Source: Actinomycetota bacterium (GTDB taxonomy: Bacteria; Actinomycetota; Actinomycetes; Nanopelagicales; Nanopelagicaceae). Taken from it: 64,000 nt of DNA. The position numbers were made by a program, and so were the translations under genes. Below the pieces are notes generated by a model. That model was not told where the DNA came from. It was given only the letters and a program-made list of their open reading frames with translations, and ran no database searches. Positions 1,978-51,941 of this stretch are shown in pieces; positions within the stretch are counted from its first letter, which is position 1; each line of letters begins with the position of its first letter. The stretch lies in the NCBI GenBank assembly GCA_026392825.1, contig JAPLBF010000008.1:29558-93557 (forward strand), read 5' to 3'.

Positions 1978-2246
1978 TAGCGGTCAACACCTCCCATCAC
2001 AGGATCGATCGAAGCAACTGCGCCGATGATGTCAGCGACCATTGATCCTTCGCACATTGCAGAAGTTGATTGCAGGTTGTTAAAAGATGGTTCGCGGAAG
2101 TGAACGCGATATGGGCGTGTGCCACCATCAGAGACAACGTGTGCACCGAGTTCACCGCGCGGTGATTCAACTGCTGAATAAACCTGACCTGCAGGAACAC
2201 GGAAACCTTCAGTTACTAACTTGAAGTGATGGATCAAAGATTCCAT
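1977..2246 (-). CDS. nuoD: NuoD C-terminal piece, out of frame with the rest of nuoD
   Basis: 89 residues running from [11 protein letters not shown] to [12 protein letters not shown], which is the conserved C-terminus of NuoD and includes the VDR end that lines the quinone cavity. It is not an independent gene. It is separated from the N-terminal 85% of NuoD by a perfect 38-bp tandem duplication that shifts the frame. The duplication supplies an ATG at 2246-2244, ten bases upstream of the TGA that ends the first piece (2236-2234), so re-initiation is conceivable. Removing one repeat copy restores one continuous NuoD of about 450 residues. Confidence 0.85.
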
Positions 2247-2290
2247 TGATGTACTAACTTGAAGTGATGGATCAAAGATTCCATTGATGT
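2215..2290. repeat. Perfect 38-bp tandem duplication inside nuoD
   Basis: Bases 2215-2252 and 2253-2290 are identical over 38 bases, each beginning ACTAACTTGAAG and ending CCATTGATGT. Agreement at period 38 extends one base to the left and two to the right. As 38 is not a multiple of three, the second copy moves nuoD out of frame. The coding sequence on either side is intact and joins cleanly if one copy is removed. Confidence 0.97.
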
Positions 2291-3355
2291 ACCCATAATT
2301 TCGCGGATATGGTTTAGTGAATTACCCATTCCGTCAGCACCAATTGCAAGTTGTGCCGGCCAAGCAATTTTCTTATCGGCAACCATTACTGGTGCGCCTT
2401 CAAGTGATTTAAGTTTTTCAGCGCATTGTTCAATGATGCGTAGCGATTGTTCTAGTTCATTGATACGAATTAAGAAACGACCATAAACATCGCAGGTATC
2501 GGCTGTGACAACATCAAACTTGTAATTCTCGTATCCGGAGTAAGGCTGAATCTTGCGCAGATCAAGTGGCAAACCTGTTGCGCGAATAACTGGACCTGTA
2601 ACGCCAAGAGTTGTGGCACCAGCAAGATCTAAATAACCAATTCCTTCAGTGCGCTTCATCCAGATGCTGTTGCCAACGAGCAACTTCTCATTATCTTTAA
2701 AGCTGTGGCGCAAATCTTTTACAGTTGCCAAGATCTTGTCGACAGCGCCGACAGGAAGATCTTGTGCAACTCCGCCTGGGCGGATGTAGGCCATATTCAT
2801 ACGTAGGCCAGAGATAAATTCAAAGATATCGAGAACTTTTTCGCGTTCGCGGAAGCAGAAGATCATCGGTGAAAGCGCACCTAGTTCAAGTGCGCCAGTG
2901 CCGAGTGCGACCATATGTGAAGAAATTCGGTTGAACTCCATCATCATTACGCGAATAACGTTCGCCTTTTCTGGCACATCATTTGTGATGCCAAGGAGTT
3001 TTTCAACGCCTAAGCAATATGCCGCTTCATTAAACAACGGAGCCAAGTAATCCATACGGGTAACGAATGTTGTGGCCTGGGTCCAGTTGCGGAATTCAAT
3101 GTTCTTCTCAATACCTGTGTGCAGGTAACCAATACCGCAACGAACTTCAGTAACGGTTTCGCCTTCAAGTTCAAGCACCAAGCGAAGCACACCGTGAGTT
3201 GATGGGTGCTGTGGCCCCATGTTTACAACAACGCGTTCTTCTTTTGCTTGACCAATTTCAGTTACGAGTGAATCCCAATCGCCACCGGTTACTGAAAAGA
3301 CAGTACCTTCGGTGGTTTCGCGTGATGATGCATATGGATCCGCGTATGTACTCAC
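2234..3355 (-). CDS. nuoD: NADH-quinone oxidoreductase subunit D, N-terminal part, truncated by frameshift
   Basis: 49-kDa-type subunit of complex I that forms the quinone site with NuoB. The first 362 or so residues are typical NuoD, including [13 protein letters not shown] near residue 47 and the GYENYKFDV region. After LIHHFKLV the frame breaks at a 38-bp duplication and the protein ends in HQWNL. Without its C-terminal domain the subunit should not assemble, so this is either a real null mutation, a strain polymorphism or an assembly artefact. The start ATG overlaps the nuoC stop (ATGA). Confidence 0.9.
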
Positions 3356-29149: not shown

Positions 29150-30514
29150 ATGGCTAAAGTCGAGAAGGATCCATTCCGCTGTTCTGAATGCGGCTGGGGC
29201 TCCCAAAAATGGGTTGGTCGATGTGGCGAATGCCAAGCCTGGGGCAGCGTTGAAGAACTTGCTGCACCTAAGAAACTCTCACTTGTCCCTGGAAAAGTTA
29301 CCCACGCAGCAACACCTATCGGCGAAGTTGACCTTTCATCGGCACGCGCTCGTGCAACAGGAGTATCTGAGTTAGATCGCGTACTGGGTGGTGGCTTAGT
29401 ACCAGGTGCCGCAATCTTGCTTGCAGGCGAACCCGGCGTTGGTAAATCAACGCTTCTTTTATCTGTTGCAGCGCAAACAGCTGCTAAAGGAATTCCCGCC
29501 CTCTACATAAGCGGTGAAGAATCCGCTTCACAAGTTCGCTTACGTGCCGAACGAATCAACGCCGTTGATCCTAAATTATTTTTAGCATCCGAAACCGATC
29601 TCGGTGCAGTGATTGCACATATTGATTCCGTTAAACCAGAACTTTTAATTATCGATAGCGTTCAAACAATTGGTTCTGCTGCAGCCGATGGCTCACCAGG
29701 TGGCGTCACACAAGTTCGCGAAGTTGCCGGCGCACTCATCCGCATCTGTAAAGATCGCGATATCACTTTGCTTCTCGTTGGCCACGTTACAAAAGATGGT
29801 TCTATCGCAGGCCCACGCTTGCTCGAACATATAGTTGATGTTGTTCTGCAATTTGAAGGCGAGCGACACTCACGACTTCGTTTGATTCGCGCCATCAAAA
29901 ATCGCTTTGGTGCATCTGATGAAGTTGGTTGCTTTGATTTAAGTGATACCGGAATCGAAAGCGTGCTTGACCCAACCGGACTCTTTACTTCTCGCCATGC
30001 CGAACCAGTTCCAGGTACTTGCGTAACTGTGACTCTGGAAGGCCGCCGTCCACTTCTTGCTGAAATCCAAGCGTTAGTTAGCCAAGGGCGCGAAAATGAT
30101 TTTGGAAATGCTCGTCGCGTCACCAGTGGACTTGATTCTGCGCGCACTTCAATGACTCTGGCAGTACTTGAACTTCGCGCCAATGTGCGCGTCGGTGGTC
30201 GTGATGTCTATGCCGCAACAGTCGGTGGAATGAAGATGTCAGAGCCGGCAGCAGATCTTGCACTAGCACTCGCTGTTGCATCCGCTGCAAAAGCTTTAGC
30301 GCTACCTGCAGATTTAGTTGCGATTGGCGAAGTCGGTCTTGCAGGTGAAATTCGCAAGGTAAGCGGTGTTTCACGTCGCTTGGCTGAGGCATATCGTTTA
30401 GGTTTCAAGCGCGCACTCGTGCCCGCAGGCAGTGATGTAAAAATCGATGGCATGGAGATCTTTGAAGTATCTCGCCTTGATCAAGCGCTACAACGTGTAA
30501 AAATTAACACATGA
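29150..30514 (+). CDS. radA: DNA repair protein RadA
   Basis: RecA-related branch-migration ATPase. It has 454 residues: zinc finger Cys11, Cys14, Cys25, Cys28 (CSEC...CGEC), Walker A GEPGVGKST at 93-101, Walker B LLIIDSVQT, and the RadA-specific KNRFG motif at 250-254. A C-terminal Lon-like domain includes DLALALAVASAAK. The stop overlaps the start of the GlcD-like gene (ATGA). Confidence 0.97.
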   Translation: MAKVEKDPFRCSECGWGSQKWVGRCGECQAWGSVEELAAPKKLSLVPGKVTHAATPIGEVDLSSARARATGVSELDRVLGGGLVPGAAILLAGEPGVGKSTLLLSVAAQTAAKGIPALYISGEESASQVRLRAERINAVDPKLFLASETDLGAVIAHIDSVKPELLIIDSVQTIGSAAADGSPGGVTQVREVAGALIRICKDRDITLLLVGHVTKDGSIAGPRLLEHIVDVVLQFEGERHSRLRLIRAIKNRFGASDEVGCFDLSDTGIESVLDPTGLFTSRHAEPVPGTCVTVTLEGRRPLLAEIQALVSQGRENDFGNARRVTSGLDSARTSMTLAVLELRANVRVGGRDVYAATVGGMKMSEPAADLALALAVASAAKALALPADLVAIGEVGLAGEIRKVSGVSRRLAEAYRLGFKRALVPAGSDVKIDGMEIFEVSRLDQALQRVKINT

Positions 30515-49440: not shown

Positions 49441-49452
49441 GCAATTGCACCT

Positions 49453-49458
49453 TAGAAT
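49453..49458 (+). promoter_or_regulatory. -10 box for the metZ-like gene (leaderless)
   Basis: TAGAAT, 7 bases, then GTG at 49466. It supports that GTG over the in-frame TTG at 49445. Divergent from the ABC exporter -10, only 12 bases away. Confidence 0.55.
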
Positions 49459-49465
49459 TATCCCT

Positions 49466-50650
49466 GTGAGTAATGAGACCTGGGGCTATCAGCCACGCAA
49501 TGAAAGGCCAGCACCAGATTGGGATTTAAATCCCCAGACGGATGCGGTGCGCGCAGGCTTGGCTCGTTCAGGATTTGGTGAAACTTCAGAAGCGCTCTAT
49601 TTAAATAGCGGATTTACATATTCTTCTGCACAGGAAGCCCTTGATTCATTTGCCGATGAAACAGATCACTATGTTTACAGCCGATTCCATAATCCAACTG
49701 TTCAGATGTTTGAAAAGCGTTTAGCTGCAATTGAAGGCGCTGAATATTGCGTAGCAACTGGGGTCACCGCGGGAGATCACATCGTTGCATCTGCGGCAAT
49801 GTTTAGTTCTTGCCACGTTGTACTCACTGAAATTTTGCCTAAGTGGGGCGTAACCGTTGATTTAGTTAGAGGAAACGATCAAGCGAAATGGGCTGCAGCA
49901 CTTAGCAAGCCCACCAAGGTTGTCTTTATTGAATCCCCAAGTAATCCACTTATGGAAATTGTTGATATTCGCATGGTCAGCGACCTTGCCCACAAGGTTG
50001 GTGCCACAGTTATCGTCGATAACGTAATGGCCTCACCAGTTTTACAAAAACCGCTTCAACTTGGCGCAGATGTAGTTATGTACTCGGCTACTAAACATAT
50101 TGATGGACAGGGTCGCGTACTCGCTGGAGCAGTGCTTGGTTCTTTCTCTTATATCCACGAATATTTGATTCCATTTATCCGCCACACTGGCCCGACCCTT
50201 AGCCCATTTAGCGCGTGGGTTCTTTTGAAATCTCTCGAAACTATGGAGATGCGAGTAGAAAGAATGTGCCAGAACGCACAAACCATTGCTGAATTCTTTG
50301 AAACACGGAAAGAAATTAAATCTGTGAAATACCCTGGGCTCAAGTCTCATCCTGATTATGCAATTGCACAGAAGCAGATGAGTGGCGGAGGCAGCACTAT
50401 CGGTATCGAATTTGTGGGCAGTCAGAAAGATGCCTTCAAATTTATGGATGCCCTGCGAATTATCGATATCTCAAATAACTTGGGCGACAGTAAGTCCCTC
50501 ATCACTCATCCAGCATCGACAACTCACCGTCGCCTATCGCCAGAAGTTCAGGCAGAGATGGGAATTATGCCTTCAGTGTTGCGTCTATCAGTTGGTCTAG
50601 AACACGTGGATGATTTGATTAAAGACTTAACTCAAGCCTTAAACAACTGA
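49466..50650 (+). CDS. metZ: O-succinylhomoserine sulfhydrylase-like PLP enzyme with internal deletion
   Basis: 394 residues of the Cys/Met metabolism PLP family. SATKHIDGQGRV with the PLP lysine Lys210, DHYVYSRFHNPTV and ISNNLGDSKSLITHPASTTH are typical of MetZ. Where the family has an S/T-G-M-A-A loop that holds the PLP phosphate (after EGAE), this protein reads EYCVATGVTAGDHIV, missing about 13 residues in frame (around 49757-49768). Activity is therefore doubtful unless the deletion is an assembly error. Convergent with ctaB, with a 19-base 3' overlap. Confidence 0.85.
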   Translation: MSNETWGYQPRNERPAPDWDLNPQTDAVRAGLARSGFGETSEALYLNSGFTYSSAQEALDSFADETDHYVYSRFHNPTVQMFEKRLAAIEGAEYCVATGVTAGDHIVASAAMFSSCHVVLTEILPKWGVTVDLVRGNDQAKWAAALSKPTKVVFIESPSNPLMEIVDIRMVSDLAHKVGATVIVDNVMASPVLQKPLQLGADVVMYSATKHIDGQGRVLAGAVLGSFSYIHEYLIPFIRHTGPTLSPFSAWVLLKSLETMEMRVERMCQNAQTIAEFFETRKEIKSVKYPGLKSHPDYAIAQKQMSGGGSTIGIEFVGSQKDAFKFMDALRIIDISNNLGDSKSLITHPASTTHRRLSPEVQAEMGIMPSVLRLSVGLEHVDDLIKDLTQALNN

Positions 50651-51620: not shown

Positions 51621-51941
51621 ATGACACCTCCAAACAAGCCAGAATGGATCCATCTCGCGGAAACAGATTCTGCACCGCAAAAAAAGAAATCATCTCGCGC
51701 GCTTCCCGCGCTAGTGCTTGCCGCCGCCATGTCGATCGTTGGCCTCGGAGCACTTGTCGCGCAAAACGGAGCTGAAACACCTGCCGCCGCGCTCGAACAA
51801 GGAACTAACCTCTCTTCCGCCTCTTCACCTGCCGAACCATCAACTCCGAAGCAACCATCTATCGCTTCTCTGCCAACAGGCGGTGGAGATGATGACGAAG
51901 CTGTTGATCACGATGATGACGAGGAAGACGACGACCACTAA
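51621..51941 (+). CDS. Small membrane-anchored protein with acidic Asp/His tail
   Basis: 106 residues. A hydrophobic helix at about 28-47 follows a basic KKKSSR stretch, then a Ser/Pro/Ala-rich linker and a C-terminal tail of mostly Asp, Glu and His (GGGDDDEAVDHDDDEEDDDH). Topology is probably N-in with the acidic tail outside. The tail could bind divalent cations. No family recognised. AAGG lies 10 bases before the ATG. Confidence 0.68.
   Translation: MTPPNKPEWIHLAETDSAPQKKKSSRALPALVLAAAMSIVGLGALVAQNGAETPAAALEQGTNLSSASSPAEPSTPKQPSIASLPTGGGDDDEAVDHDDDEEDDDH

Follow-up and report, generated by a model that had tools for sequence, protein, structure and literature searches.

The metZ gene in the stretch of DNA analysed here (64,000 nucleotides in all; hereafter the window) is assembled without 13 residues that its relatives carry, which raises the question of whether the organism has lost part of its O-succinylhomoserine sulfhydrylase or whether the loss arose during assembly. 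The first-pass annotation had proposed that about 13 residues (39 bases) are gone in frame while both flanks and Lys210 are intact, and that the enzyme is probably inactive. It had also pointed to a 38-base duplication in nuoD as a hint of a common cause such as assembly collapse. The window sits in contig C25 of a genome of 1.38 Mb (38 contigs, 97.2% estimated completeness, 2.8% contamination), and its closest kin belong to the Candidatus Planktophila group of freshwater Actinobacteria. The features under discussion are collected in Table 1.

Table 1. Positions in the window of metZ and of the large insertion and deletions in its conserved genes
Feature	Position	Strand	Remarks
metZ, O-succinylhomoserine sulfhydrylase	49466..50650	+	TIGR01325, 3ndn, dN/dS
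Junction in metZ; 39 bp (13 residues, SGMSAMFASLACL in relatives) missing	49749..49779	+	gap at about 49762
Perfect 38-bp tandem duplication in nuoD, frameshift	2214..2292	-	probably the same class of error as the metZ gap
Second 39-bp gap; end of radA, stop codon and spacer to the next gene missing	30503..30510	+	

The open frame (49445-50650) begins with a TTG, and the likely start is the GTG at 49466; with this start, the number of the PLP-binding lysine equals the Lys210 of the first-pass annotation. The frame scores 510.4 bits against the NCBIfam model TIGR01325, just above the cut-off of 510.05, and the MetZ models outrank those of the lyases and MetY, which are likewise PLP enzymes of Cys/Met metabolism. 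It also matches PRK07810 with an E value of 2.6e-157, and the best solved relative is the PDB entry 3ndn. By full-length homology, the protein resembles the MetZ of Candidatus Planktophila relatives and of mycobacteria (3ndn), and the nearest relatives share about 90% protein identity with it, including the PLP lysine and the flanks of the gap. Lys210 lies in SATKHIDGQGR, in agreement with the motif S-x-T-K-H-x-D-G-Q-G-R, and is invariant across the alignment, in which the other active-site residues are conserved too.

The assembled window sequence lacks 13 residues, among them the SGM cofactor loop, that the MetZ of the Planktophila relatives and of mycobacteria possesses. Alignment with the 11 nearest relatives reveals a single gap, exactly 39 bp long, apart from which the gene has neither an indel nor an internal stop, and the segment (consensus SGMSAMFASLACL) is carried by all 80 relatives retrieved from public genomes. 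It is almost invariant, with the G and the M of SGM each found in 79 of the 80 rows as aligned. The size and frame of the loss, the intact flanks and the match of the lost part to the SGM(A/S)A cofactor loop are therefore as first described. Both this cofactor-phosphate loop and the helix that follows it, which characterize TIGR01325 MetZ, are absent from the assembled sequence. That the missing segment takes part in PLP binding follows from family membership. For CalE6, a related methionine gamma-lyase, the listed cofactor contacts include Ser75 and Gln77 (PMC4851618). These residues would presumably correspond to the S and M of SGM.

The gap is truly present in the assembled sequence, where the DNA runs from GCGTAGCAACTGG directly into GGTCACCGCGGGAGATCAC; the junction as printed, ACTGGGGTCACCGCG, carries no Ns. 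The alignment discloses no compensating change near the gap. Its ends, compared with the relatives, have essentially no microhomology and no useful repeat, and deletion between direct repeats is rejected on this ground. When the junction was searched as a degenerate pattern among 135 genomes of the genus, it was found in its own genome only.

The selection acting on metZ was evaluated from dN/dS, the values of which are rough because synonymous sites are near saturation in most pairs. They range from 0.018 to 0.051 against the 11 relatives, compared with 0.023 to 0.044 between intact copies; the pair with the nearest relative gives a dN/dS of 0.051 at a dS of 0.68. Decay of metZ as a pseudogene is ruled out by these low values and by the lack of any lesion other than the gap. 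Since purifying selection is undiminished and no other lesion is present, the gap is either very young or unreal. The latter is far likelier, because similar joins occur in the same genome.

To place the gap among the other differences of the window, we set the window against the corresponding region of three relatives, namely two complete chromosomes (G151 and G152) and contig C4 of G155, over about 57 kb, using a clustered scan of gaps. Three large indels in conserved genes are peculiar to the window genome: +38 (2217-2258), -39 (30505) and -39 (49762). The first is the nuoD duplication already noted, in which two identical 38-bp copies break the reading frame. The second had been missed in the first-pass annotation. 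It is seen against all three relatives, takes away the radA stop codon and the spacer ahead of the next gene, which is FAD-linked oxidase-like, and leaves RadA ending in ...VKINT. Thus, metZ and radA have lost bases, whereas nuoD has gained them.

Comparable irregularities are found outside the window. In the stretches of other contigs that were sampled (392 kb of unmasked sequence including the window), there are N-gaps of 102, 23, 20 and 9 bases. At an HU-like gene on C16 (L149 18581-18705), the 58 bp preceding the 9 Ns are repeated exactly after them, and from the sequence this repeat is best read as an unmerged scaffold overlap. On C10, a 9-bp overlap is repeated across 20 Ns (+29 against G151). 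At the 3' end of nusG, upstream of the window (C25 near base 1013; L132 about 950-1060), a stretch of 46 bp is duplicated; three differences separate its two copies, which look like versions from two strains set next to each other. A thioredoxin-like gene on C14 (L147 about 8692) lacks 37 bp immediately behind FCTPC, which breaks the frame, and a flavin-oxidoreductase-like gene on C18 (L151 4165-4204) has its frame shifted by a perfect 20-bp tandem duplication. Most joins of this kind in the sampled stretches cause frameshifts. In three relatives (611 kb), by comparison, perfect repeats with a period of 16-70 have only the periods 18, 30 and 36, all multiples of three. C7 contains two further repeats. 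One is a 32-bp duplication (L140 3914-3977), which lies close to the beginning of a histone-like gene rich in lysine and alanine and causes a frameshift there; the other is an array in which a 31-bp unit is repeated perfectly about 3.3 times (L140 6857-6959).

For metagenome assemblies, local errors that include unmerged overlaps around Ns have been described, with the comment that they introduce incorrect protein sequences into databases (PMC7111523). The present genome resembles those cases in its overlaps repeated around Ns and in its wrong, gene-breaking joins. Unlike the N-marked joins of that type, metZ, radA and nuoD have no Ns. The same class of error recurs elsewhere in the assembly (+38, +20, -37, the repeats flanking Ns, and nusG), and we infer that the metZ gap belongs among these joins.

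Taken together, the 39-bp gap in metZ is most probably a local error made where contigs were joined during assembly and no trait of the organism (with a probability of roughly 0.87), because a third event of matching size lies at 30505, scaffold-type joins occur elsewhere and purifying selection on metZ is undiminished. The assembly is presumably of metagenomic origin, built from short reads, probably of a population with coexisting strains. Contigs ending inside metZ may have been placed end to end on the basis of a wrong gap estimate, which would have dropped the 39 intervening bases. Where neighbouring contigs overlapped, the overlap would instead have been kept twice, as in nuoD (+38), the HU-like gene (+58 with 9 Ns) and nusG (46 bp, the copies showing strain differences). 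On this reading, MetZ would be normal in the organism, and the reads would contain the missing segment. The earlier suggestion of an assembly cause shared with nuoD is well supported, except for the term collapse; wrong contig joins, by which bases are lost or doubled, describe the error better than the collapse of a repeat.

Several points count against the assembly error: the junction carries no Ns, the deletion is exactly in frame, and the size of 38/39 is shared by the nuoD, radA and metZ events. As to the frame, the best reading is that it was kept by luck, since one third of random lengths would do so. As to the size, a single cause behind all the events, for example an unmerged k-1 overlap with k = 39, is attractive in the case of nuoD, but the other joins are sized 20, 37, 46 and 58, and we do not claim it.

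The strongest rival reading, which we consider unlikely, is that this strain really underwent a recent in-frame deletion, which took out the SGM cofactor loop together with the helix behind it, leaving MetZ inactive and homocysteine to be supplied by MetY. The gap is clean and in frame, and the low dN/dS would suit a very young event. MetZ could also be dispensable given the other proteins of the pathway. MetY is intact (441 aa), has its own SGMAA loop and exceeds the TIGR01326 cut-off, and MetH is present above its cut-off. A MetX-like protein scores 405 bits, below a cut-off of 500 that none of 14 control genomes reached. A cystathionine gamma-lyase-like protein is present as well, and MetE was not found in the genome by family search. 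In any case, homocysteine synthesis is backed by the intact MetY, with the MetX-like protein and MetH present, so that a loss of MetZ, even if real, need not cause auxotrophy; in the literature, we found no paper joining Planktophila, methionine and auxotroph. However, a real deletion is opposed by the 38/39-bp events in nuoD and radA and by several faulty contig joins of this assembly, by the lack of microhomology or a repeat at the gap ends, and by the retention of gene and segment in all relatives. The earlier claim of a real deletion and hence an inactive enzyme is thus unsupported.

Far less probable still is a functional MetZ with a shortened loop. The kept frame, the conserved lysine and other active-site residues and the low dN/dS are compatible with it, but hardly any variation is seen in the lost SGM segment among the 80 relatives, no change nearby compensates for it, and the gap occurs in no other genome of the genus. 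It is equally hard to credit a strain-specific MetZ that folds without the PLP-phosphate loop and holds its cofactor in some altered manner, with homocysteine being made by MetY. A clade-wide variant, the sharing of which by other genomes, together with growth without methionine, had been put forward as a sign of function, is dismissed because no other genome among the 135 of the genus, and none of the 80 relatives, has the gap.

The metZ gap adds no biology and serves as a useful warning. Although the genome is rated about 97% complete and 2.8% contaminated, several of its conserved genes are disrupted or shortened by contig joins, and for this reason apparent gene damage in it should receive no biological reading without a check of the reads.

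The remaining large differences of the window are found near 51.6-52 kb, where a small acidic protein is encoded, and at 54.2 kb; at these places the relatives also differ from one another. The former region (51621-51941) holds a small-protein gene with an acidic, histidine-containing tail (DDDEAVDHDDDEEDDDH), and its length varies strongly among the relatives.
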